DNA from: Flavobacteriales bacterium
Lineage (GTDB): Bacteria > Bacteroidota > Bacteroidia > UBA10329
Direction of reading: 5' to 3'
DNA length: 64,000 nucleotides
NCBI GenBank assembly: GCA_021739695.1
Contig: JAIPBM010000004.1
Location: 124,001-188,000 of the forward strand
Part shown: one piece after another, positions 1-55,470 of the stretch
How the letters are laid out: every line of letters begins with the position of its first letter
How positions within the stretch are numbered: the first letter of the stretch is position 1
Made by a program: the position numbers and the translations under genes
The notes under the pieces: generated by a model
The model's database searches: none
Seen by the model: only the letters and a program-made list of their open reading frames with translations
What the model was told of the DNA's origin: nothing

Positions 1-963
1 AATACCAGTTTTCCCACCGCCCAAATAAAAACTGCCTCCCATAAATTCCTTTTGAATTTCAAGCGGGAGGTCTCGCCAATAACCTTTTTGAGGTACTAGG
101 TCTAATACTTCTCGTTTGCTTTGGGGGTATTTTGCGCCCGTTGACATTGGAACATTTGACTCAAACAATACTCCTTTCTTCAAGGCATCATGTAGAGTGT
201 AAACTTTCTGATGGGGTTTTGGATATTCATATCGAATGTCAATATCTTTTCTTACGCCTACCAAAATCAGTCGTTCACGTTTTTGTGGCACTCTATAATT
301 TATTGCTTTCAACACTTGAACAGGAACGACATTGTAGCCAATTTCGTCTAAAATTGAAATCATTCCCTTCAATGTTCTCCCATTCTCATGGCTTAGCAGA
401 CCACGGACATTTTCACCGATACAAATAGGTGGGTTTACTTCTTTGACAACTCGAGCAAATTCATAGAATAAGGTTCCTCTTGCATCAGCAAGACCAAGTT
501 TTTTTCCTGCGTAGCTAAAAGCTTGACATGGAAACCCACCAGTAACCACATCGATTTTATCGTAATATTCTGAAAAATCAAACGCTTTGATATCTCCTTC
601 AAGCACCCTCCATGCTGGACGGTTTTTTCTTAAAGTTTGGCAAGCCCATTTATCGATTTCATTTAGCGCCACACATTTTAAGCCTGCCCTTTCCAACCCG
701 ACAGCTAAACCTCCAGCCCCAGCAAAAAGCTCTAAGACAGAGTAGTCTCTGTTTGCCTCAACGTAGTTGGTTATTACGTCATCAATTTCTTCATCTAGAA
801 AATCCGCGAACAAGGTTTCAACCTGTTCTCGTTTATACACTCGATAATTACTTATCGGTTCGCGCACAGCCAAAAGCTTTCCTTCTCTGTCCCACCTTCT
901 TAGAGTTTCTTTGCTTTTTCCAATTAGTTTGGAAGCTTCGGATAGCGTTAAATATTCATTCAT
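1..963 (-). CDS. DNA (cytosine-5) methyltransferase with N-terminal HTH, 3' end cut by window edge
   Basis: Hand translation from the ATG at 963-961 gives 321 residues open to base 1, so the C-terminus is missing. Residues 1-50 (starting MNEYLTLSEASKLIGKSKET) look like a MerR/excisionase-type helix-turn-helix. The C5-methyltransferase core follows: motif I LFAGAGG at 79-85, motif IV GGFPCQAFS with catalytic Cys146, motif VI ENVRGL near 195 and motif VIII QKRERLILVG. The visible end (GGSFYLGGGKTG) is in the variable/target-recognition part. It transfers a methyl group from SAM to C5 of cytosine in a specific site. No restriction partner is visible, but the flank beyond base 1 is unknown. The HTH may give promoter binding in addition to catalysis (inference). 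A TAACC/GGTTA inverted repeat lies just upstream. Confidence 0.93.
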   Translation of the reverse strand, partial: MNEYLTLSEASKLIGKSKETLRRWDREGKLLAVREPISNYRVYKREQVETLFADFLDEEIDDVITNYVEANRDYSVLELFAGAGGLAVGLERAGLKCVALNEIDKWACQTLRKNRPAWRVLEGDIKAFDFSEYYDKIDVVTGGFPCQAFSYAGKKLGLADARGTLFYEFARVVKEVNPPICIGENVRGLLSHENGRTLKGMISILDEIGYNVVPVQVLKAINYRVPQKRERLILVGVRKDIDIRYEYPKPHQKVYTLHDALKKGVLFESNVPMSTGAKYPQSKREVLDLVPQKGYWRDLPLEIQKEFMGGSFYLGGGKTGI

Positions 964-975
964 AACCAAGTAGTT

Positions 976-994
976 TAACCTTATACAATGGTTA
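976..994. promoter_or_regulatory. Inverted repeat upstream of the HTH-methyltransferase, candidate operator
   Basis: TAACC (976-980) and GGTTA (990-994) are separated by 9 bases, 13 bp upstream of the methyltransferase ATG. The spacing and position suit an operator for its own N-terminal HTH domain. The arms are only 5 bp, so this is a suggestion. Confidence 0.35.
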
Positions 995-1073
995 CGAATT
1001 TATGATTTCCAGCAATACCATTTATATCGTCTGTGTAATTATTCACTAACACAGGTATTTGGAATCATTTCTC

Positions 1074-1096
1074 AACTGATAAGAACTCCATCAGTT
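1074..1096. other. Small hairpin before the first 21-bp-periodic array
   Basis: AACTGAT (1074-1080) pairs with ATCAGTT (1090-1096) across a 9-base loop. It lies about 60 bp before the periodic array. The second array locus has a hairpin with a GATCAGTC/GACTGATC stem at a similar distance, so this may be a shared part of the locus plan. Confidence 0.4.
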
Positions 1097-1163
1097 TTCA
1101 ATTGTTCGCATTGAATTTAACCAGTGTTCATCCTGCAAACCGCCATCGATCTTTTCAACCCCG

Positions 1164-1540
1164 CGTCCAAGGTTCTACACTCGTGTTGTACGGATCAACA
1201 GCACGATTTCAAACCTCCCCACCCCAACATCACAGCTCAACACTCCTGCCGCAAAGCTCTACACCACTATTGTTGAGTTCTACAGCAGCACTTCAGAACA
1301 CGAAAGCAGCCCCGTCCAATCCAACACCTCAAGTGTTGAATTCTTCAGGAGGATAGTTCATTTCAATAGAAGGACTGTTTAATAGCAAAGTAGCATAGTT
1401 GATTTCAACAGTAGAAGAGTTAAATCCAACACTTGCACTTCAGAGCTTGTTTTTAGCGCTGCTGATTCCTAAAGTTGAATTTCAAAGCTCTGAAATTCAA
1501 CTGTTTGCTTGTGAAGAATAACAATTTCACACTTTTTTTC
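1164..1540 (+). repeat. Degenerate 21-bp-periodic array (about 18 units) upstream of a small orphan gene
   Basis: The 680 bases between the methyltransferase and the next start hold no convincing gene. From about 1170 they fall into consecutive 21-base units sharing a pattern near TCAACA...GTTnA. Examples are gctcaacactcctgccgca, gctctacaccactattgtt and attcttcaggaggatagtt. One plus frame (1102-1356) stays open and reads as heptads of the SSTxxLQ kind before stopping, so steady translation through the array is unlikely. The units are too diverged for recent tandem duplication, and there are no constant repeats with unique spacers, so this is not a CRISPR. A clearer 21-bp array precedes another small protein at 18,220. 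Confidence 0.6.
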
Positions 1541-1644
1541 AATTGGCGAAAAATAAAGTCGTATCGGCCAATGTTTTTAAGGAAAGGAGAAAGTCTCCGA
1601 CAGGGTTTGCCATCCTGGAAACACTCACTAAAAACTGTAAAGAA

Positions 1645-2055
1645 ATGGCTAAGAAAACAGCACGGGTGGTGATTCCCCGTAATCCTGAAGAGCTCATTGA
1701 GCTGGGCGAAGGGATTGTTCTGAAGCACAACGAAGATCCAGCCAATAGCCCCATTGCGGGTTTAGACATGGCCGAGTTTGAACAACTGGTTCTGGTCAGT
1801 AAAAAGAAGAACGCAGAAGCGAAGAAGTTGCGAAAAGATGCCGAAACGGCCACCGAAGACCGCGACACGCTGCTTGGGCATCGGAAAGATCAGAACAGCA
1901 ATACGCTGGGTACGGTGCTCAATTATGTGTCACGCTCAAGAGACATCCTTCTGGGTAATTTCAGAGGTAAGGAACAGCACTTGGGAGATTATGGATTTGT
2001 GGTGAATAAGAGCAGTAGCACTACGCCTTCGGAACCTACTGACCCCACGCCCTGA
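1645..2055 (+). CDS. Small orphan protein behind a 21-bp-periodic array
   Basis: 136 residues from the ATG at 1645 (MAKKTARVVIPRNPEELIEL). The frame is open further up to a TTG at 1543, but the extra 34 residues look like array-derived leader, and the AT-rich bases before 1645 suit a Bacteroidota start. The protein is soluble, without signal peptide or membrane segment. It has a charged helical middle (KKKNAEAKKLRKDAETATEDRD) and a Ser/Thr/Pro-rich tail after a GDYGFVV motif. I recall similar small paralogous proteins in Bacteroidota genomes but know no function. A strong terminator follows at once, so it forms a single-gene unit with the array as its 5' region. Confidence 0.75.
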   Translation: MAKKTARVVIPRNPEELIELGEGIVLKHNEDPANSPIAGLDMAEFEQLVLVSKKKNAEAKKLRKDAETATEDRDTLLGHRKDQNSNTLGTVLNYVSRSRDILLGNFRGKEQHLGDYGFVVNKSSSTTPSEPTDPTP

Positions 2056-2075
2056 ATGAAACGAGCCGAAATGTG

Positions 2076-2107
2076 AAGGGCGACATCAACAGATGCCGCC
2101 CTTTTTT
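2076..2107 (+). terminator. Rho-independent terminator
   Basis: AAGGGCG (2076-2082) pairs with CGCCCTT (2097-2103). An inner CATC/GATG stem closes the loop and a run of T follows. It ends the small orphan gene. Confidence 0.85.
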
Positions 2108-2153
2108 GTGTCTTTCTCGTTACTCTTCGCTTATCGCACATCACTCAAAACGC

Positions 2154-3569
2154 TCAAAATATCTTCTCCGGATTCAGGATGCCCTTCGGGTCAAACACCG
2201 CTTTAATGCCTCGCATGAGGTCGAGGTTCTTTTCGGCCATGGCCAAATGCATGTAAGGTCGCTTGGCAATGCCAATGCCGTGCTCGCCCGAAAGCGTTCC
2301 ACCCAATTCAACCACCGCTTTGAAGATGTCGGCAATGCCCTCGTTCACTTCCTTATCCCAATAGGCATCCGAAAGTTGTTCCTTCATGATGTTCACGTGG
2401 AGGTTTCCATCGCCCACATGGCCGTAGCACACCGAACGGAAACCGATGCGGTTGCCAATTTCTTTGATGGCCGTTACCAACTTGGGCAGATTGCCACGCG
2501 GCACCACCACATCTTCCGATTTGGTCAATGAGTAGGAGTTTACACCCGGAGAAACGTTCCTGCGCAAGCGCCATAGGCCGTCTTTTTCCTCAGCAGTTTG
2601 CGCAAAGTAGATTTCGCCCGTTTCGTAGTTCTCCAACACCTCCACGATCTTCTCCGCTTCGCCCATCAGCACATCTTCATCATTCCCATCCAGCTCAATG
2701 ATCAGATGCGCGTGGATATGATCGGGCAGGTCGATGGAAACAGGCTTGCTCAGCACTTCATCCACATATTTCATGGCCAGCACAATGGCATCGCGCTCCA
2801 TGAATTCCATGCCCGAAGGCGTCAATCCTGCCTTGTAAATACCCGAAATGGCGCGGCAAGCTTCCTCCGAACTGGTGAAAGGCACCAGTAGCGTCACATC
2901 CTTCTTAGGCAAAGGCCGCAGTTTAAAAACAATGCGGGTAATAACGCCCAGTGTTCCTTCGCTGCCGCACATCAGTTGCGTCAGGTTATATCCGGTCGAA
3001 TTCTTCAGCACATTGGCAGCCGTCCATATCACTTCTCCCGTAACCAGCGCCACTTGCATGTTGATGACATAATCGCGCGTAACGCCATACTTCACCGCCT
3101 TTGGTCCTCCTGCATTTTCGGCCAGATTTCCGCCCAGAAAGCAACTTCCCTTGCTACTTGGGTCAGGCGGGTAGAACAATCCTTTCTCCTTCACTGCATT
3201 CTGAAAAACCTCCGTTATCACACCAGGTTCTACCGTGGCCTGTAAGTTCAATTCATCAATGTCGATGATGCGGTTGAAGCGTTTCATGGCCACCACCACA
3301 CCGCCTTTTATCGGTAATGCTCCTCCGCTCAATCCTGTTCCACCACCACGTGCTGTTACAGGTATTACATGTTCATTACAAAGCATCAGAACAGCAGCCA
3401 CTTCTTCGGCAGCATCGGGCATCACCACCACCTGCGGCATATACACGTGATCTTCCGTTTCGTCCGATGCATGGATCTTCAGAGTTTCTTCATCAACAAA
3501 GAAATTGGCAGCTCCAACAACGCTTTTCAGCTGTTCCAGCAATTCGGGGGTGATCTTACCGTATGTCAT
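2154..3569 (-). CDS. FAD-linked oxidase, GlcD / D-lactate dehydrogenase type
   Basis: 471 residues with the FAD_binding_4 (PCMH-type) fold in the N-terminal half. The FAD-contacting stretch GTGLSGGALPIKGGVVVA lies near residue 78 and PPDPSSKGSCFLGGNLAENAGG near 135. An FAD-oxidase C-terminal domain follows, ending in YGHVGDGNLHVNI and SGEHGIGIAKRPYM. The family oxidises 2-hydroxy acids (glycolate, D-lactate, D-2-hydroxyglutarate) and passes electrons to quinone or an electron carrier. The substrate cannot be fixed from sequence, and no GlcE/GlcF partners are adjacent. A TACTTTTG box sits 28 bp upstream of the start, in the divergent gap with the peptidase gene. Confidence 0.9.
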   Translation of the reverse strand: MTYGKITPELLEQLKSVVGAANFFVDEETLKIHASDETEDHVYMPQVVVMPDAAEEVAAVLMLCNEHVIPVTARGGGTGLSGGALPIKGGVVVAMKRFNRIIDIDELNLQATVEPGVITEVFQNAVKEKGLFYPPDPSSKGSCFLGGNLAENAGGPKAVKYGVTRDYVINMQVALVTGEVIWTAANVLKNSTGYNLTQLMCGSEGTLGVITRIVFKLRPLPKKDVTLLVPFTSSEEACRAISGIYKAGLTPSGMEFMERDAIVLAMKYVDEVLSKPVSIDLPDHIHAHLIIELDGNDEDVLMGEAEKIVEVLENYETGEIYFAQTAEEKDGLWRLRRNVSPGVNSYSLTKSEDVVVPRGNLPKLVTAIKEIGNRIGFRSVCYGHVGDGNLHVNIMKEQLSDAYWDKEVNEGIADIFKAVVELGGTLSGEHGIGIAKRPYMHLAMAEKNLDLMRGIKAVFDPKGILNPEKIF

Positions 3570-9728: not shown

Positions 9729-10924
9729 AGCGAGCTTAGCGGCACCAAACTCACTCCCTTGTAGTAATATCCAAGGATCTGACTGTAGGTGTAGCCACTT
9801 TCTGCCATTTTCATGGCGCCCTGTTGGCAAAGACCTACACCATGTCCGTATCCGCGACCGGTGAATTCTGCCTTTCCGTTTTCCACCTTTAGGTCGAAAT
9901 TGGTGGAACGCAATTGCAGCAGCCTCCGCATTTTGGACATTTCAATTGAATCTTGATACAGTGTAAAGTATTTTTCTCTCTCTGGTTGAAGGAAACTCCA
10001 TCCGCTAGAATCTACAGCAGTTGCCTCAAAACCTAGTTGAGCAATCAGTTCTTCCATAGGCATGCTTTTGTCCCAAGTGGCGCTGCGGCTTTGCGTACAG
10101 AATGTGTCCGTTACCGATGTAAGATACGAGCGGGATTCTTTCCAAACATCTTCTGAGTTGGCTGTTTGTCCGCCACAATTGGCATGAAACGCACTTAGAA
10201 TGAATTCATTTTTCGGGTCAACCATTACCAGTCCGCTGGTGGCAGAGGTTGCCTTCATCACTTCATTCGTGGCTGTTTTCAATCCAGAATAAACTTGACA
10301 ATGCTCGTTATCGCAAAGGTCAAATCCATCAGCTGCATGCCGTTCCAAATTCCGAACCGCGTATGTTCTACAAATAATGCTCTGAATCTTGTAGTACTCT
10401 TCATTGGCTCCATACCCAACCTCAGCCTGCACCACCCGTGCCACATATGGCTCAATTCCAACTTGGTTCACAACTGTCAGATTACCGTTTTTCACCATTA
10501 CCATCAGGTCATCGAAATAGGAATGGTCACGGTTTTCGTTGTTGAAACGCACTCGGAAATTCGGGGAATTTCCTTCCCCAAGAATTTTCAAACTGGCAAC
10601 GGTGTCATTCAGTCCGTACGGAGATTTGACCAATAGTCGTTCTCCGAGGACCGTCATCGAAATGGCATCATCCGATTTGAACACGTAAAGTGTGTCGCTT
10701 TTGTCATTCATCAAAACATACTTACTGGCGGATGGCGAGAACAGCAAGCTGGTTATGGAACTGTGATACATCAACCCAACTGCAACCGTTTGGGCACAGA
10801 CGCTAAAAACCTGCGAAACGCTTATGGAAAGCACCAAAAGCACGCATCTTGTGAGACGTATGGAGAAATTGACTTTTGAATGTTTGTAAGCCTCTGTAAA
10901 CTCGTGGTTCTTTCCGTTGACCAT
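9713..10924 (-). CDS. SpoIID/LytB-domain protein, probable envelope amidase/lytic factor
   Basis: 403 residues. The N-terminal hydrophobic segment (about 25-44, ending SVCAQ) is a signal peptide with an unusually long polar front; no better start was found. The SpoIID core follows: IEPYVARVVQAEVGY, YKIQSIICRTYAVRN, then LSAFHANCGGQTANSEDVW and the C-terminal GRGYGHGVGLCQQGAMKMA. In spore formers SpoIID is a lytic transglycosylase; in Bacteroidota the homologues are probably peptidoglycan-active envelope proteins. It is divergent from the large coiled-coil protein, with about 70 bp between starts. Confidence 0.88.
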   Translation of the reverse strand: MVNGKNHEFTEAYKHSKVNFSIRLTRCVLLVLSISVSQVFSVCAQTVAVGLMYHSSITSLLFSPSASKYVLMNDKSDTLYVFKSDDAISMTVLGERLLVKSPYGLNDTVASLKILGEGNSPNFRVRFNNENRDHSYFDDLMVMVKNGNLTVVNQVGIEPYVARVVQAEVGYGANEEYYKIQSIICRTYAVRNLERHAADGFDLCDNEHCQVYSGLKTATNEVMKATSATSGLVMVDPKNEFILSAFHANCGGQTANSEDVWKESRSYLTSVTDTFCTQSRSATWDKSMPMEELIAQLGFEATAVDSSGWSFLQPEREKYFTLYQDSIEMSKMRRLLQLRSTNFDLKVENGKAEFTGRGYGHGVGLCQQGAMKMAESGYTYSQILGYYYKGVSLVPLSSLQLGK

Positions 10925-10939
10925 TCCTTAAAAACGAAT

Positions 10940-10947
10940 ATTTTTGG
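10940..10947 (+). promoter_or_regulatory. TAnnTTTG -7 box for the 1541-residue protein
   Basis: TATTTTTG lies 46 bp before the ATG at 10994 and inside the longer open frame from 10880, which argues for the internal start. Confidence 0.5.
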
Positions 10948-10993
10948 GAGCTTGAATGAATTGCCGAAAATAACCCGAAAAACGGGTAAATCC

Positions 10994-13900
10994 ATGGTGT
11001 TAAAAGCACGCTTACTATTTCACATCTTATTGTTTCTTCTTGCCTTGCAAGGTTTTGGGCAAGTTAGTTTTGACAGTCAGGAGGAACTGGAAAAGGCGGC
11101 TAACGCATTTTTTGACAACAACGAATTTGCGAATGCCAAACCGCTCTTCTCGCAATTGTTGAGTAAAGACGCGCTTAATCCGAACTACAATTATCGATTT
11201 GGCGTTTGTATCCTTTTTACCGAAGCAGATCCGCTAAAACCGTTACCGTACATCGAAGGTGGGGCAAGTTCAAAGGGAGTGAATCCAGAAGCGCATTACT
11301 TTTTGGGAAAGGCTTATCAGCTCAATTATCGTTTTGATGATGCTATAAAATCATACGAAAAGGGAAAAACTGCAGGGTTCAGTAAGCCAAATGTTGACCT
11401 GGACCGAAGCATTCAAGAATGCAGAAATGGCAAGATACTATACAACGATGCCATCGATTTTGAACCTGCCATGGACAAAGAGGTTCTTGCCAGTGAATTC
11501 TATCGGCCTTACGATTTCCGGAAATTGAAAGGCAAGGTTATTCCCTTGCCACCTAATTTCAAGACGAAGTTTGACGAGAAGAACCTTACAGGAACGGTTG
11601 TTTATACTCCAACCAACAGTCAAACTTTGGTATACGCCAGCTATGGCGAAGATGGAGCGAATGGAAAAGATCTGTATCGGGTAAACCGTCTCCCGAACGG
11701 AGAATTGGCCTTGCCACAGCGGCTGCCAAGTACCATCAATACCAAGTATGATGAGGATTATGCCTTTTACGATGAAGATTCGCAGACGCTTTATTTCGCT
11801 TCGCAAGGACATAATACCATGGGTGGTTATGATGTATTCAGTTCAAAATTCGATGCTGGCACAAACAACTGGTCAACTCCACTGAACCTACAGTATCCTA
11901 TCAATTCTCCGTTCGATGACTTCCTGTATGTTAGTGATCCAGATGGAAAAGTGGCGTTTTTTACAACGGAAAGGAATGTGGAAGAGGGTAAGCTTCGAGT
12001 GCTGAAAACCCTACTTCATGATCCAGGACAAGTAGAGGTTTCGGTCTTGGAGGGTTCGTTTGAAGATAAGACAGATTCTGTCTACAATTATGCTGCTTTG
12101 ACCGTTCTGGATCCAATTACCAATGAAGTGGTTGGAAAGTACAGAACACACAAAGTGACTGGAAAGTACCTTCTGATACTACCTCCTCAGAACGATTACA
12201 CGATGGATGTTGGGCCACGCGAAGCGGACGGGTTTAAGTTTGATCTTGATGTGCCAGTAACAGAATCGACAGAGGCATTAAAGCAGAGCATTGTCTACGA
12301 TGCCATAGGAGAAAAAGGAACGGTTACCCTAACGAATTTCTTCGATGCAACTGGAAATCCAGATTCTGTGAAGTTTGCGGAAACCAGACCACTGCAAGAA
12401 GTTGAAGAGAAGATGATTGCAATGCCAGATGCATCTGAACTTCTGGCAGCGAGAGCAAAAGAAAAGACAGCTGCTGCTAAAGCTCAAAATGATGTGTTGG
12501 CGAAGGAAAAAGCACAGCAGGAAGCCACCAAGCAAGCGGAAGAATTGGCTCTGAAACAACAGCAAGAGGCAGAAGAAGCAGCCAGACAAGCTGAGTTGGC
12601 GAAAACAGAACAGGCCAAATTGGAGGCCACCAAGCAAGCAGAAGAATTGGCTCTGAAACAACAGCAAGAGGCAGAAGAAGCAGCCAAACAATCTGAGTTG
12701 GCGAAAGCAGAACAGGCCAAATTGGAGGCCACCAAGCAGGCAGAAGAATTGGCGCTGAAGCAACAGCAAGAAGCTGAAGCAGCAGCCAAGCAAGCTGAGT
12801 TGGCGAAAGCAGAACAGGCCAAATTAGAAGCCACCAAGCAAGCGGAAGAATTGGCGTTGAAACAACAGCAAGAAGCAGAAGAAGTAGCTGCTAAACAAGC
12901 TGAGTTGGCGAAAGCAGAACAGGCCAAATTGGAGGCCATCAAGCAAGCAGAAGAATTGGCGCTGAAACAACAGCAAGAAGCTGAAGAAGCAGCCAAGCAA
13001 GCTAAGTTGGCGAAAGCAGAACAGGCCAAATTGGAGGCCACCAAGCAAGCGGAAGAGTTGGCATTAAAACAACAGCAAGAAGCTGAAGAAGCAGCCAAGC
13101 AAGCTGAGTTAGCGAAAGCAGAACAGGCGAAAAAGGATTCAATTGCAGCTGAGCTCTTACGCGAAAAACTCATGTTAGCTGAAAAGCAAAAGCTAGAAGA
13201 GATGCAGCGCGAAGTGGCTTTGGCCAATCAACGCAAGTTGGAAGCAGAAAAAGATTCAGAAGCAATTAAATTGAAAGCTAGACAAGATTCCATTGAAGTG
13301 GAGAATCAGCGGCAAGCGATGTTGTTGGCAGAAAAAGAACGTTTGGCTGAACTTGAGAAGTCAGTCGCTTTAGCAAATGAGAAAAAGGAACTTGAACAAG
13401 CGAAGGAAGATTCGTTGAGGATGGAGCGCGAGCGAACTGAGGCGCTTGCAGCGGAGAAAGAGCGTTTGGCACAAATTGACCGTGAGGTGGAATTGGCCAA
13501 ACAACAGGCAATGCGTGATTCGTTGATTGAGCCAGCTGTGGCAAGCACTTCGGAAGTGATGGAAGAGGATGCTTCGCTCAGTCAGATCTTGGAGGAAATG
13601 AAATTGAGAGAGGCGGAATTGCTGAAGGAACAGGAATTGGTAGCCAAACAAAAGGAATCGGAAGCAGCTGGTGCGCAGGCTAAAGAGCTTGAGGCAACAA
13701 AAGCTGAAAGCAAAAAATCGAATGAGATAGCAGCAGATGAACAGCCGCAGACCATTTCTAAGGAAGCTCCCGAAACCGAGTTGACCGATGTGAAAGTGGT
13801 GTCAGAATCGGAACTTTTCTTGCAGACAATAGCCAAATTGGAGGCGCAACAAAAAGAGCAAGAGGCCTTGGTAGCAGCCGAAAACAAACAACGAGATGCG

Positions 13901-15619
13901 TTAAAAGCTGAGAAGAAAGAAGCGGCTCTAGCAGTTAAGCAGGCAGCTGATTCATCAGCAACTGGAGGTATGGAAACCACTAGTGTGGCGGCTAACACGG
14001 ATAACAGCACGGGTGCAGAACAAGCGCTTGATGGTGAACTCGAATCGGTGGCTTTGAAAAGCAATGCAGATCCACAGGAATACTTGGCTGCACTGAATGA
14101 AATTGAGCAGCGAATGAAGACTGATGCAGCTGCTCAGGCTGAAAAGGACTACACACTGCGGCCATTGGATCCAATTGAAGTGCCTGCTGTAAGCAAGGAT
14201 TTTGATCCAGTTTTGGAGGCGAAGATTGCCGCGGATAGAGAAATTCTTGCCGAGCATCAGAAAATTGCCGTGGAAAAAGAACAGTTGTTGAGACAGCAAA
14301 TGGCGCAGGATAGAGATGCGCTGGATGTGATGTACGATGATGAAATGAATAAGGAGTTGTTGTCTGCCGAGAATGAGGAGATGATAACTCAGCCGAATGT
14401 GGCTACTAAAGGAAAACAAGTTGTTGCTCCAGCGAAAGAAGAAGTTGTTGCCCAACCTGAGGTGGTTGCGGTTGTAGAACAAGAAGTTTCGCAAGCAGAG
14501 TTGGAAAAGGAGTTTGCAGCAGTAGAAGAAGCACTGAAAAATGAGGGGATCAAAGAACCGACAGCTGTAGTTGTCAAGGTTGAAGAGCTTCCTGTTCCGG
14601 CAGAAATTGCGGTGGCCGAAGTTGTTGAAACACCAGCGCCATCTGTAGTTGAGGAAACGGTGAACCTTACCGTACCAGAGCCCGCTGTAGAAGAAGAGGT
14701 GACACCAATTGCCGAAACTCCACAGATTTCAGAATTGGCGGAGGAAACGGATGAGCAGATTCAGGAAGAGTTGGATGTCGTGAATGCGGTAACCAAAGAA
14801 TTGGAAGTAGCGGAGCCTGAAAATGTTAAAACGGTAGAAACCGTTGAAGTTGCGACAGAGACGGAATCGCTGAATCCAACAGAAGCTGTTGAAACCCCTG
14901 CACCGATTGTCGCGGAGGAAACGAGCGAAGCTACTTTGGTGGAAGAACAATATCAGTTAGAAGAAAGGGAAGAGGAGTTAGGAGAAGTACGTGCTGAAAC
15001 TCCACCACGTTCTATCAACGCTGCTCCGAATTGGTTGGAAGCAAGTACTGGACAGATACATTCAATGACGGCTGCTCTTCGAGATTACAGCACGCAGAAA
15101 CCTTCCTTCGAAAAGATTGAAGACCCGAGCATGAGAAAAATGGTTCAACGCATGCGTGCTGAGGACATCGGTCGGGTTGCGGTGCTCAAAAACATGAAGA
15201 ACCAGTGGGTGGAAGCAGGAAAAACAGCTGAATCACTGAAAGAGATCAAATCGAATCTGCGTAATCAGGATGTGCTGGAAACGGTTGCGGCAGCACCTTC
15301 CCGAGAAGAGTACATCCGCCCACCGTTTAATAAGGATGATCTGAAAAAGCGTGAAAACGTATCATATAGATTGGAATTTGAGATCCGCACCAATGGCGTG
15401 TCTCAGACCATCACCGAGACCATGACACCCGAACAGGCCATTTCATTCTCCATGCCCGAATTCAGTTTGCAGTCTGGTTACTATGAAACGCTATCGGATG
15501 CCCGAATGGATTACAATGACTATCGCAGTAAAGGATTTGAATCGGTGAAAATCATTCCTTACCTGAAAAATGAAGCTGTGATGTTGTCGGACGTTGAGAA
15601 TATTCCGTTTGTCGATTAA
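10994..15619 (+). CDS. Large TPR / PD40 / coiled-coil envelope protein with SPOR-like C-terminus
   Basis: 1541 residues from the ATG at 10994, which opens a signal peptide (LLFHILLFLLALQGFGQ). Order: TPR-like helices (about 25-150); PD40 beta-propeller segments such as DEDYAFYDEDSQTLYFASQG (about 190-340); a carboxypeptidase-regulatory-like stretch (about 360-470); six 34-residue coiled-coil repeats (512-716); more charged coil; a Val/Glu/Pro-rich linker (about 1130-1330); and a C-terminal domain with the SPOR-like pattern FSLQSGYYETLSDARMDYNDYRSKG. The TPR-PD40 order recalls the T9SS protein PorE, which ends in an OmpA domain; here a SPOR-like domain could take over peptidoglycan binding (inference). 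It may form a periplasm-spanning strut. Confidence 0.8.
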   Translation: MVLKARLLFHILLFLLALQGFGQVSFDSQEELEKAANAFFDNNEFANAKPLFSQLLSKDALNPNYNYRFGVCILFTEADPLKPLPYIEGGASSKGVNPEAHYFLGKAYQLNYRFDDAIKSYEKGKTAGFSKPNVDLDRSIQECRNGKILYNDAIDFEPAMDKEVLASEFYRPYDFRKLKGKVIPLPPNFKTKFDEKNLTGTVVYTPTNSQTLVYASYGEDGANGKDLYRVNRLPNGELALPQRLPSTINTKYDEDYAFYDEDSQTLYFASQGHNTMGGYDVFSSKFDAGTNNWSTPLNLQYPINSPFDDFLYVSDPDGKVAFFTTERNVEEGKLRVLKTLLHDPGQVEVSVLEGSFEDKTDSVYNYAALTVLDPITNEVVGKYRTHKVTGKYLLILPPQNDYTMDVGPREADGFKFDLDVPVTESTEALKQSIVYDAIGEKGTVTLTNFFDATGNPDSVKFAETRPLQEVEEKMIAMPDASELLAARAKEKTAAAKAQNDVLAKEKAQQEATKQAEELALKQQQEAEEAARQAELAKTEQAKLEATKQAEELALKQQQEAEEAAKQSELAKAEQAKLEATKQAEELALKQQQEAEAAAKQAELAKAEQAKLEATKQAEELALKQQQEAEEVAAKQAELAKAEQAKLEAIKQAEELALKQQQEAEEAAKQAKLAKAEQAKLEATKQAEELALKQQQEAEEAAKQAELAKAEQAKKDSIAAELLREKLMLAEKQKLEEMQREVALANQRKLEAEKDSEAIKLKARQDSIEVENQRQAMLLAEKERLAELEKSVALANEKKELEQAKEDSLRMERERTEALAAEKERLAQIDREVELAKQQAMRDSLIEPAVASTSEVMEEDASLSQILEEMKLREAELLKEQELVAKQKESEAAGAQAKELEATKAESKKSNEIAADEQPQTISKEAPETELTDVKVVSESELFLQTIAKLEAQQKEQEALVAAENKQRDALKAEKKEAALAVKQAADSSATGGMETTSVAANTDNSTGAEQALDGELESVALKSNADPQEYLAALNEIEQRMKTDAAAQAEKDYTLRPLDPIEVPAVSKDFDPVLEAKIAADREILAEHQKIAVEKEQLLRQQMAQDRDALDVMYDDEMNKELLSAENEEMITQPNVATKGKQVVAPAKEEVVAQPEVVAVVEQEVSQAELEKEFAAVEEALKNEGIKEPTAVVVKVEELPVPAEIAVAEVVETPAPSVVEETVNLTVPEPAVEEEVTPIAETPQISELAEETDEQIQEELDVVNAVTKELEVAEPENVKTVETVEVATETESLNPTEAVETPAPIVAEETSEATLVEEQYQLEEREEELGEVRAETPPRSINAAPNWLEASTGQIHSMTAALRDYSTQKPSFEKIEDPSMRKMVQRMRAEDIGRVAVLKNMKNQWVEAGKTAESLKEIKSNLRNQDVLETVAAAPSREEYIRPPFNKDDLKKRENVSYRLEFEIRTNGVSQTITETMTPEQAISFSMPEFSLQSGYYETLSDARMDYNDYRSKGFESVKIIPYLKNEAVMLSDVENIPFVD
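12527..13141 (+). repeat. Six in-frame 102-bp tandem repeats inside the large coiled-coil gene
   Basis: Each unit encodes 34 residues beginning T/I-KQAEELALKQQQEAEE and ending AKAEQAKLEA. One unit has a single-residue insertion (EEVAAKQ), giving 615 bp in all. Units differ mostly at synonymous sites, so they are old enough to have drifted but still selected for sequence. Copy number could vary between strains. A 247-codon Cys/Ser-rich open frame on the opposite strand is only a shadow of these repeats. Confidence 0.95.
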
Positions 15620-18021: not shown

Positions 18022-18096
18022 GCTTGGTAGTATCTAAAGGTAATGCATAGGTAAATATCCACTTGCGTTTATGTGTTCTGGCTTGCACCCCCTGCT

Positions 18097-18127
18097 CGCG
18101 CAAGTCTTCCGTAGGATGACTTGTGCG
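18097..18127. other. Strong hairpin upstream of the second 21-bp array
   Basis: CGCGCAAGTC (18097-18106) pairs with GACTTGTGCG (18118-18127), 10 bp with one G-T pair; TCC/GGA inside the loop can pair further. The 470 bases between the lipoprotein start and the next ORF hold this hairpin, another at 18,139 and the tandem array, and no supported gene. Confidence 0.6.
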
Positions 18128-18138
18128 GAATTTGGTGC

Positions 18139-18158
18139 GATCAGTCTCCTGACTGATC
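18139..18158. other. Perfect 8-bp hairpin upstream of the second 21-bp array
   Basis: GATCAGTC, TCCT loop, GACTGATC. It lies 12 bp after the previous hairpin and about 60 bp before the array. A similar ATCAGT-containing stem precedes the first array at 1074-1096. Confidence 0.65.
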
Positions 18159-18219
18159 TCCGAAGCATTCATCATTTTAGTACCATCCATAGTTCCCATT
18201 CATTTCAATATCCGATGCT

Positions 18220-18502
18220 TTCGACTTCCGAGCAGCTAAGTGCTACTTCCTAGCGGTTAAGTCCTCACTCAGATGCCCGAAGTGCATACTTAGGCGCCAA
18301 GACCGCTTATTCAGACGCCAAGAGTGGATACTCAGACGTCAAGAGTGAATACTTAGACGTCAGGAGTGGATACTTAGACGTCAAGAGTGCTAATTCAGAC
18401 GCCAAGAGTGGAGATTCAGACGTCAAGAGTGCAGATTCAGGCGCCAAGAGTGCAGTTTCAGACGCCAAGAGTGGAGATTCAGATGCCAAGAATGCAGATA
18501 GA
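18220..18502 (+). repeat. 21-bp tandem array (13 full units plus a partial) running into a small orphan gene
   Basis: The best units are near tgSagattcagacgYcaagag, for example at 18388-18408, 18409-18429 and 18451-18471. Unit borders are exact from 18220 (18220, 18241, 18262 ... 18472), with the last copy fading after 18493. Upstream units (18220-18303) are degenerate and downstream ones nearly identical, so growth or homogenisation took place at the gene-proximal end. In the gene's frame the units read (V/M)xIQTPR, but upstream variants with TTAGAC give in-frame TAG, so most of the array is not translated in that frame. The repeats are contiguous without spacers. Confidence 0.93.
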
Positions 18503-18887
18503 CAAACTCATGGAGAACTTCATCACCTCCGACCCCGAATTCTACGCCACCTATCACAACGCCCGTAAGATCGTCAATGCAGGCCATGGCTCCGGTGGCG
18601 GCACCATCGAATTCACTGGCGAAATACCTGCCAGCAGCACCGTCAATATAAAGGATGGAGTAGCCCCCAAAGTAAAGATCTCCATCAAGAACATCGGTAC
18701 CGTTCCCTTCTTCGTCTGTTCAACCGATTCGGCAGCCGAAACCTGCACCATCGGCCAGGTCCTCAACCCGGGCGAAGAAGTGAACTTCATAGGCGGCAGC
18801 AGTGGAGCGCCACTGCTCAAACCCTTCCTCAATGCAACTAACAACGACCCGCTCACCGTTGCCAACTACAAGGTCGCCATCTCATAA
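18492..18887 (+). CDS. Small orphan protein at the end of a 21-bp tandem array
   Basis: 131 residues from the ATG at 18492 (other in-frame starts are at 18483 and 18510; the frame is open back to 18378 through array units). The N-terminal MENFITSDPEFYATYHNARKI stretch is helical. A beta-rich part follows (GGGTIEFTGEIPASSTVNIKDG, then VKISIKNIGTVPFFVCSTDS) ending VANYKVAIS, giving a compact beta-sandwich-like look. No signal peptide. The function is unknown. The base composition is more GC-rich and repetitive-codon-like than its neighbours. It shares its locus plan, but no clear sequence similarity, with the gene at 1645. Confidence 0.75.
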   Translation: MQIDKLMENFITSDPEFYATYHNARKIVNAGHGSGGGTIEFTGEIPASSTVNIKDGVAPKVKISIKNIGTVPFFVCSTDSAAETCTIGQVLNPGEEVNFIGGSSGAPLLKPFLNATNNDPLTVANYKVAIS

Positions 18888-23827: not shown

Positions 23828-23833
23828 GTTTTA

Positions 23834-24166
23834 TGCAAACCCGTAAGCCAGATCCTGTTTTAGCTCACCATTTATCTATGCAACCTACCCATCGGGAAAG
23901 AGCGAGCAACTCTTAATTCCCGACCTATTTGGTCTTGCAGCCCGTAAGGTTTGTCCCATTCCGATGTTACCACCGAAACGCGTGAGCTCTTACCTCACAT
24001 TTTCACCCTAACCCTTCGCAAGCAAAGGGCGGTCATTTTCTGTGACACTTGCTGTTGCCGTAGAATTCCTTCCGCGACACCCACATTTGCATGCGGTACG
24101 GTGCTCTATGCTGTCTGGACTTTCCTCCATCCCGACATGTCGGGACAGCGGTGAGCCGATTTGCGC
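23834..24166 (-). ncRNA. rnpB: RNase P RNA component (bacterial type A)
   Basis: The minus strand carries the universal RNase P landmarks in order: GAGGAAAGTCCAGACAGC near the 5' end (P4 5' strand, about 24,110-24,127), the ACAGAAA...ACCGCC segment, the GGTAAGAGCTCACGCG region, GGGTAGGTTGCAT and a terminal ACAGGATCTGGCTTACGG (P4 3' strand). GCAAAT at the 5' end pairs with GTTTGC at the 3' end as P1, which sets the ends to within a few bases. Length about 333 nt. It processes the 5' ends of tRNAs with RnpA. It starts about 10 bp after the stop of the Smr gene, so its promoter lies inside that gene's 3' end or it is read through from it. Confidence 0.95.
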
Positions 24167-24173
24167 TGCAAAG

Positions 24174-53139: not shown

Positions 53140-55470
53140 TTAGTCAAACACCACTTCCATTTCTACCCTACGGTTCTTGGCACGTCCTTCTGGCGTATCG
53201 TTCGGATAGGCAGGTTTGCTTTCGCCAAACCATTCTACCACAAATTTGCTGCTTGCAACACCTTTGTTGGTCAAATAAGCGCTTACCGATTTAGAACGTT
53301 TTTCAGAAAGTTTCATGTTTGCATCATCGCTTCCCACGTTATCTGTGTGGCCAGCGATCTTCAGTTTATAGTTCTCTTTTTTCTTAAGCACTTCTGCCAA
53401 TTGGTCTAGCGAAGGGTAGGATGATGCTTTGATCACATCGCTTCCTGTTTCAAACTCAAGGTCATCAAAGGCGGTGTTCAATACTTCCTGCTCTTCTTTT
53501 TCAATTACAGGACAGCCTTTGTTTTCAACCGGGCCTGGCGTTCGCGGACACTCGTCTTCAAGGTCGATAACGCCATCTCCATCAGAATCTTGATACGGGC
53601 AGCCCTCATTGTCTGCCGGCCCAGGCACATCAGGGCAACGGTCCACGTTATCTAGCACGCCATCTCCATCTCTATCTCCCCACGGGCAACCCTTGTTTTC
53701 GGCAGGACCGGCCTCGTTCGGGCACTGATCATCATTATCCAAAATGCCATCACTGTCTCTATCTCCCCACGGGCAGCCATTATTATCTACCGGCCCGGCC
53801 ACATCAGGGCAAGCATCTATGTTGTCGGTCACGGTATCCCCATCTCTATCTCCCCACGGACAACCTTTGTTCTCTTCAGGGCCAGCAACATCTGGACACT
53901 CGTCTACATTATCTGTAATGCCATCTGCATCAATATCGCCCCAAGGACAACCACCGTTCATGCGAGGTCCGAATTCCGTTGGGCAGTTGTCAACCTGATC
54001 AGGAATGCTGTCGAAATCCGTATCTGGGCATCCTAAATAGGCTTCTAACCCAAATTGATCTGGGCAGTTATCCACTTTGTCCAGAATTCCGTCTCCATCA
54101 CGGTCGCTTTTCTTGCCCTCCTTATAGTTTACAACGAAGTTCAACCCGCTGTGGAAGTGTGCATTCTGCGTATGCTGCGGCATCATTGGCGCCAAGATGT
54201 TGTCCATGGCCAAGTACCATTGTACTGGTCCGAGCGTGAGGGCAAATCCTAGACCGAGGTTGGCAAAGTTGCGGTTGTTGTACATGTAACTTCCGCTCAG
54301 GTGGAAGATGGTTCCGAACTTATGCGTGTAGTTCAAGGCCACTGCAGGTTCAAAGTGCGTTTTGAATATCTCACCATAGAAATCAAGTCCCAAGCGGTCT
54401 TTTTCGGTGAATTTGTAAGCGCCACTTACATAGATCTGCGAGCTGAGTGTAGTGCTATATGTATTGGTCTTTTCCTGAATGTTGAACACGGATTTCAAGG
54501 TGTCGACAAACTCATTGAAGACATCTGCACTATCTGGCTGCGTGAGATACTGCGCCAGATCCAATCCTTGATAGGTGAATTGCGCATCGTTCAACTCGTA
54601 GCTCTTCACGTTGTCTTTCCAGAAGATCATTCCCAGATCATTGGCACTTGCAGCCACTTCCCACTTGTCATCGATCATATAATGTGCACCCAGATTGAAT
54701 GCAAAACCGTGGTTTCCGCTGAAGGCGATCTTTGCCGCATTTACGTTATCAATGTCGTTGAAGAAACCTGAGGTTCGAGCTGTGAAATTGGCTTTTGCGG
54801 TGATGTTGTAATTGTTCGGGTCTGTGTAAATAGATGTTCCTCTATTGTCGGTAGAAACATTCACCGTTCCGTTCAAATATTTCACGGTAATACCTACACG
54901 GAGCTTCTTATCAAGCAGCTTCCGTGCATAACTGATTCCGTATTCGGTATACACAGATGCGTCTGCATTGAGTTTAGATAGGTCGATTTCCTCACCCAAA
55001 AAAGCCCCGTTTCCTTTCCAAAGGAATTCCAATCCTTTTTTCGGAAGCGTGAAGCGCGAAGCAACTCTTAGCGAGCTGTTTACATAGATGAAGTTGTTGG
55101 CATCGGGCCCAAAGGTGAAACTGAATGAGAGCAGATCGATCTTCGCATTCATCGTCAGGTAGTTGTTCTTACCCATCTTATCCAACGCGCCTTGCAGATC
55201 AACATAAAGCGAATCGTTCGCATCTTTCTTAATAAGCTGAGAATAAGCATGACCATTGTATCCAAGGGTGATGTGATTGCTGCTAAGCGCAGGAATGCCG
55301 ATGTGCCATTTACTATCTGGGACAAACGCAGGGTTGATATACATACGCTGCGGAACGAGTGTCATTCCCTGCATGGTAAAATCGTACTGCGCCTTGGCCT
55401 GATAGGAGCCGAGCATCAACATGATGATTGCGAGAAATGAAAGGCTTTTCTTGAATAGTGGGTACGCCAT
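53140..55470 (-). CDS. DUF5723-type beta-barrel with TSP3 repeats and OmpA domain
   Basis: 776 residues. A signal peptide (about 1-27, ending AKAQ) precedes a barrel-like domain (about 30-450) beginning YDFTMQGMTLVPQRMYINPAF, as in DUF5723/PorP-like proteins. Seven thrombospondin type 3 calcium-binding repeats follow (about 455-655), for example DRDGDGILDKVDNCPD and CPWGDRDGDGVLDNVDRCPD. The OmpA-like peptidoglycan-binding domain ends the protein (LKIAGHTDNVGSDDANMKLSEKRS and AKNRRVEMEVVF). The protein probably spans the outer membrane and grips the cell wall. A large lipoprotein gene lies 23 bp upstream on the same strand and is a likely partner. Confidence 0.9.
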   Translation of the reverse strand: MAYPLFKKSLSFLAIIMLMLGSYQAKAQYDFTMQGMTLVPQRMYINPAFVPDSKWHIGIPALSSNHITLGYNGHAYSQLIKKDANDSLYVDLQGALDKMGKNNYLTMNAKIDLLSFSFTFGPDANNFIYVNSSLRVASRFTLPKKGLEFLWKGNGAFLGEEIDLSKLNADASVYTEYGISYARKLLDKKLRVGITVKYLNGTVNVSTDNRGTSIYTDPNNYNITAKANFTARTSGFFNDIDNVNAAKIAFSGNHGFAFNLGAHYMIDDKWEVAASANDLGMIFWKDNVKSYELNDAQFTYQGLDLAQYLTQPDSADVFNEFVDTLKSVFNIQEKTNTYSTTLSSQIYVSGAYKFTEKDRLGLDFYGEIFKTHFEPAVALNYTHKFGTIFHLSGSYMYNNRNFANLGLGFALTLGPVQWYLAMDNILAPMMPQHTQNAHFHSGLNFVVNYKEGKKSDRDGDGILDKVDNCPDQFGLEAYLGCPDTDFDSIPDQVDNCPTEFGPRMNGGCPWGDIDADGITDNVDECPDVAGPEENKGCPWGDRDGDTVTDNIDACPDVAGPVDNNGCPWGDRDSDGILDNDDQCPNEAGPAENKGCPWGDRDGDGVLDNVDRCPDVPGPADNEGCPYQDSDGDGVIDLEDECPRTPGPVENKGCPVIEKEEQEVLNTAFDDLEFETGSDVIKASSYPSLDQLAEVLKKKENYKLKIAGHTDNVGSDDANMKLSEKRSKSVSAYLTNKGVASSKFVVEWFGESKPAYPNDTPEGRAKNRRVEMEVVFD

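Follow-up and report, generated by a model that had tools for sequence, protein, structure and literature searches.

Why should an array of 21-bp direct repeats lead into a small bacterial gene, and what holds such an array to its step? The locus that raises this question lies in a window of 64,000 nucleotides, the whole stretch of DNA that was analysed, from the genome of a Flavobacteriales bacterium. At 18281-18499, TRF reports a tandem repeat of period 21 with 10.4 copies, 81% matches and no indels, and autocorrelation over 18260-18500 yields self-identities of 0.79, 0.78 and 0.76 at lags 21, 42 and 63, whereas no lag outside the multiples of 21 exceeds about 0.36. Together with the identity of each unit to the consensus AGTGCAGATTCAGACGCCAAG, these analyses delimit an array of 11 clear units without indels at 18271-18501 on the forward strand. 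The first-pass annotation had counted thirteen contiguous units; the remaining two or so are only worn and faint, as the unit table places outer units that are in phase with the array but only 0.38-0.48 identical to the consensus at 18208-18270 (forward strand), including two faint far-end units at 18208-18249 (0.48). Consensus identity rises from 0.38-0.67 at 18250-18291 to 0.81-0.95 at 18397-18501, and the decay gradient that had been described, with the best-kept units next to the gene, is therefore real in this array.

The two hairpins that had been placed before the array are present. The first (18085-18138, forward strand) is possibly a terminator or a leader structure, and the second (18139-18158, forward strand) consists of an 8-bp perfect stem, GATCAGTC-TCCT-GACTGATC. 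The 101-nt segment that holds both (18085-18185) folds at -42 kcal/mol (z -5.98), with none of 200 shuffles folding as well. A search of the 4.24-Mb genome for the window unit, as had been proposed, found no match outside this locus with up to three mismatches allowed; what this locus shares with others is thus a plan and not a sequence.

The array runs straight into an open frame of 131 amino acids (18492-18887, forward strand), as first described. This frame had been taken for another intact orphan gene, but it instead corresponds to the C-terminal part of a member of a protein family referred to here as F1, matching F1 residues 181-266 and carrying a beta-type C-terminal domain. F1 proteins are composed of an N-terminal helical domain of about 220 residues and a beta domain, often CarboxypepD_reg. 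The 18492 product begins at about F1 residue 181 and lacks the N-terminal ~180 residues of the helical domain, and it contains the signature LMxxF...PEFYxxYxxARxIV..G that marks the end of this domain. It is 33% identical to part of a 321-aa F1 paralog of the same genome (L002/L011, contig C14) and, over residues 2-34, 64% identical to the complete F1 protein of locus L030. An ortholog from a sister genome (G003), 80% identical at the protein level, continues upstream as F1 codons, reading SILTKQMDKLMENF up to a contig edge just upstream, which matches AILKTRMDKLMENF of the L030 protein.

In blastn alignments, the homology of the window gene to its relatives starts at 18495 with the letters CAGAT, at the point where the match of the unit GTGCAGATTC ends. 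Side-by-side sequences show that this pentamer (18495-18499, forward strand) is present both in the array unit and in the F1 gene of the sister genome (AAACAGATGG). These sequence comparisons strongly suggest that the window gene is a truncated F1 gene that meets the array at a microhomology of 5 bp, and the fusion probably arose by deletion between the two CAGAT copies. Such a deletion would have taken out some 180 codons and the leader along with the gene-side end of the array, so that the array became fused to what is left of the gene. The one-sided gradient of the window array can be attributed to this cut, as other arrays have no consistent polarity. Across 48 arrays, uniformity of the gene-side half minus that of the far half is -0.020 (sem 0.018), with 17 of the 48 differences positive. 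The gradient is thus not a general property, and the notion that new units arise at the gene end is not supported. A comparison of the codons from 18492 onward with those of the sister-genome ortholog (dN 0.12, dS 0.67) indicates that selection has constrained the C-terminal domain during at least some of its history.

The F1 helical domain is predicted by AlphaFold with pLDDT mostly above 90, and when 395 genomes of the class were searched with a profile, disregarding matches only to the common C-terminal domain, F1 helical domains turned up in more than 15 families of Bacteroidia. In a contig search with query A2, the named matches were Flavobacteriales MAGs only. Six further loci (L047, L048, L049, L051, L052 and L053) encode a C-terminal domain like that of the window protein, with a C...C pair and an FLN.(S/T)N motif, behind unrelated N-terminal domains; four of them (L048, L049, L052 and L053) are also array-led. 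The shared C-terminal domain suggests domain shuffling among array-led genes. The 321-aa paralog gene similarly has its own upstream 21-bp array, with units unlike those of the window.

The window also harbors a second, heavily worn 21-bp array at 1204-1454 (forward strand; score 0.51 at lags 21 and 42), with identities of 0.44-0.46 at lags 21, 42 and 63. This array leads a gene (1645-2055, forward strand) for a small all-helical protein of a family referred to as F6, which is predicted to fold into four helices (AlphaFold pLDDT 87.7) and is unrelated to F1. In Pfam, NCBIfam and PHROGs the helical domains of these proteins are unannotated, the C-terminal CarboxypepD_reg of F1 being the sole known domain. 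Convincing matches among solved structures likewise cover the CarboxypepD_reg domain only, in searches in which the helical domain was not queried alone. A phage or plasmid origin was considered and rejected, as F1 is absent from phage records and F6 from plasmid records. The arrays of two F6 paralogs (L234, L245) are directly preceded by a conserved hairpin that resembles a terminator (GTCCTGC...GCAGGAC and then a T run).

That the array plan is the shared part of such loci, as had been proposed from the two window loci, is borne out both within the genome and class-wide, in that arrays precede unrelated small-protein families. Of 79 distinct F1 genes for which 250 bp or more of upstream sequence was available, 57 have an upstream period of 21 (36 genes) or 42 (21 genes), taking the best period in each case, and every best score above 0.45 falls on one of these two periods. 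An upstream period-21 array is found in 22 of 29 F6 loci. Absence of any counterpart before other small genes had been named as what would refute a common plan; counterparts are found in both families, and this refutation therefore fails. Of the 52 period-21 arrays at F1 loci, 47 fall in the 800 bp before the gene (61.8 kb), compared with 5 in the other 274 kb. When periods of 13 to 60 are scanned, 47 upstream arrays are found at 21 and 44 at 42, and nearly all arrays of other periods belong to two loci, one AT-rich and one with a 20-bp stretch. These counts include F1 loci that are not independent, several sharing genomes and ancestry, and the detection thresholds were the analyst's choice.

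Outside these families, the census of arrays rests on 400-kb samples per genome. The sample of the window genome contains one more non-coding array, of 21 bp, 365 bp before a gene for a 652-aa protein, and its remaining periodic arrays are coding or probably coding. Within the window itself, 102-bp repeats at 12520-13132 lie in an alanine/glutamine/glutamate-rich coding sequence (10880-15619), and 87-bp tandem repeats at 53570-53925 are probably coding. In 400 kb of genome G011 there are about ten arrays of 21 or 42 bp besides a single one of 41 bp, G190 has four 21/42-bp arrays, and G158 has one array that looks alike though it was scored as coding; in one sampled genome the density reaches about one array per 35-40 kb. 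In G047, which has no F1 match by single-protein search, no 21-bp array was found in 400 kb. A limited search of the open-access literature found no earlier description of such arrays, the only paper among those listed that looked related being one on TAACTGA repeats. There is strong support for a family of array-led small genes, and the 21-bp arrays are apparently a widespread, undescribed DNA element of Bacteroidia. The plan has its variants: at five loci (L068, L092, L100, L101 and L042) a 21-bp array lies 3' of the F1 gene rather than 5', and two arrays (L148, 1915-2229, and L070, -827 to -617) score best at a period of 41, not 42.

The most constant property of these arrays is their step. 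A path fit that permits other steps finds exactly 21 bp in 598 of 609 unit steps, with the qualification that array ends were picked by lag 21, which biases the fit toward 21 within them. The clearest exception is a 20-bp step within a 21-bp array at -390 to -261 upstream of one F1 gene (L105). Pooled excess identity is +0.35 at lag 21, +0.37 at lag 42 and +0.35 at lag 63, and is about zero at lags 7, 10, 11 and 14, so that no sub-period of 7, 10 or 11 bp is present. Conserved columns clump into one core per unit (z 0.75 +/- 0.19), clear palindromes were not found in the units (mean z 0.30 +/- 0.15), and the unit sequences differ from locus to locus. B-DNA makes one turn in 10.5 bp, and up to 60 no integers other than 21 and 42 correspond to a whole number of such turns.

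A step of 21 is also a multiple of three, and the question had been raised whether the units are translated, which would give seven-residue repeats in an upstream peptide or in a fusion. An open frame, counted over six frames, does run through 35 of the 48 arrays, but permutation of the units leads one to expect 29.7 of 48, and the other 13 arrays have stops in all six frames, both window arrays among these. Furthermore, at F1 loci scanned for periods of 13 to 60, non-coding arrays of period 18 or 24 are almost absent. Translation of the units is therefore regarded as highly improbable.

The position of the arrays upstream of genes, and the hairpins or terminators before some of them (the window array, L234/L245), would fit an array that is transcribed and acts as RNA, whether as a repeated leader, a small RNA or a protein sponge. 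However, the arrays have no strand preference in composition (GC skew is negative in 28 of 48), and on neither strand does the gene-side part of the window array fold more stably than its shuffles (z 0.23 and -0.16). The segment 18250-18390 folds more strongly (z -2.2), which may reflect the GACGTC cores of the window array. No Rfam family was found at arrays in the window and in six sources, the only match in the window being the Bacterial RNase P class A RNA (RF00010) at 23828-24167 on the reverse strand. A role of the arrays as RNA is accordingly judged quite unlikely.

Comparisons of related loci show how the arrays turn over. Between one pair of orthologs the array differs by 84 bp, or four units, and between another by 22 bp; a pair that is 93% identical has no indel in 214 bp of array, and two related genomes have identical arrays adjoining a slightly different CA run. 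In L041 and L058, old paralogs within one genome, the upstream flanks are 0.79 and the genes 0.69 identical, but the arrays are only 0.47 identical, and unit similarity between the paralogs L121 and L122 has a z of 1.0. Conversely, three loci whose F1 proteins are 46-50% identical (L020, L021 and L022) keep a common unit consensus (z 5.5-7.1). This retention between distant orthologs argues for a sequence-specific reader.

These observations bear on two further explanations. The arrays may be the by-product of some process by which DNA is copied or duplicated 21 nt at a time, with little function of their own. The exact step with arbitrary sequence, the occurrence of 42-bp ABAB super-units and the replacement of arrays between intact flanks are all consistent with such a process. 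However, the arrays cluster strongly before particular gene families, the unit consensus is retained by distant orthologs, and even arrays that have diverged heavily retain the step and have few indels, contrary to what decay should produce. This origin is considered unlikely, and the same applies to the idea that the shape of the DNA is read rather than its sequence, such that the bends of any unit add up over the two-turn period into a curved or stiffened segment that is recognized by nucleoid proteins or polymerase, with the sequence of the unit at liberty to change. The predicted bend is indeed about three times as coherent at a period of 21 as at 20 or 22, and old paralogs with unrelated units (L041/L058; L121/L122) have the same period. 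Nevertheless, two wedge models predict no more bending for the units than for the same units with their columns permuted (mean z -0.27 to 0.07), and the consensus kept between distant orthologs again stands against a reader of shape.

With curvature not raised, coding rejected and RNA structure not evident, the explanation that is favoured, tentatively, is that the arrays are helically phased tandem protein-binding sites that control the neighbouring gene. Each 21-bp unit would consist of one short core and span exactly two turns of B-DNA (2 x 10.5 bp), and a step of two turns places all cores on the same side of the helix. A protein could load side by side over 5-30 units and so set the transcription of the flanking small-protein gene, and the locus-specific core would keep paralogs apart.

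At at least ten loci, the likely binder would be a divergent Cro/C1-type regulator of the HTH_26 type encoded at the far end of the array. A divergent small HTH_26 gene is found at this position in nine F1 loci of two families, and only one other HTH_26 gene occurs in the roughly 2 Mb of DNA sampled; it too lies directly beside an array, at a site without an F1 gene. Other helix-turn-helix genes lie near some arrays. Most arrays, both window arrays included, have no HTH_26-type regulator within reach, and HTH_26 proteins would therefore directly explain only a minority. Unit similarity correlates with similarity of the regulator recognition helix (r 0.47) to the same extent as with F1 identity (r 0.47), so that co-evolution of recognition helix and unit is not demonstrated and is inseparable from overall relatedness. 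Most operators of Cro/C1 proteins are palindromic, and against an operator reading stand the lack of clear palindromes in the units and the location of some arrays 3' of the family gene or next to unrelated genes.

A bolder form of the phased-site explanation, possible but rather doubtful, is that the arrays constitute a class of chromosomal element that is defined not by sequence but by helical coherence over a long range, through its two-turn step. Each locus would build an array of its own, starting from a fresh unit, the step would be what is selected, and the unit would serve as the private address of a locus-specific protein. If this is true, dozens of related small-protein genes per genome are controlled separately. 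Ordinary repeat mutation produces arbitrary periods and does not readily account for non-coding arrays that combine an exact step with free sequence. Such arrays are a natural experiment in which to ask why helical phase is maintained in DNA elements. They recur in more than 15 families of this major class, before genes of protein families to which no function could be assigned. They may represent a new form of transcriptional control, and they provide a route towards the function of the small helical proteins.

Several known systems resemble these arrays in part. As in CRISPR, each unit has a conserved and a more variable part, but the total step is 21 bp and the arrays hold no spacer-like unrelated inserts; unit length alone argues against their being CRISPR. 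Phased A-tract curved DNA, which lies upstream of promoters, similarly repeats an element in helical phase; the arrays here, by contrast, do not require A-tracts, some being GC-rich, and they have no 10-11-bp sub-period and no excess of predicted curvature. REP elements share one palindromic sequence genome-wide, and REP/BIME clusters are associated with RAYT transposases. They too are many-copy intergenic repeat clusters, whereas the 21-bp units are neither shared nor clearly palindromic. One locus (L222 in G190, 851-3319) has arrays of about 50-bp period around a Y1/RAYT transposase-like gene, and this cluster likely consists of REP elements, distinct from the 21-bp arrays. TAACTGA heptamer repeats are found between genes in Beggiatoaceae, Cyanobacteria and some Bacteroidetes, and in Maribeggiatoa they mostly lie within a few bases of a start codon (PMC4679880). 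Like the 21-bp arrays, they are abundant intergenic direct repeats before unrelated genes, partly in Bacteroidetes, but they have one fixed 7-bp sequence, in contrast to the free sequence, 21-bp step and missing 7-bp sub-period of the arrays. In tandem operators and plasmid iterons, direct repeats of about 20-22 bp are bound by an initiator or a regulator. The arrays share with these the direct repeats, a step near two turns and, at some loci, a neighbouring gene for a DNA-binding protein. Unlike these systems, they occupy many chromosomal loci per genome and lead uncharacterised protein families, no replication initiator was seen, and their unit differs at nearly every locus of one genome.
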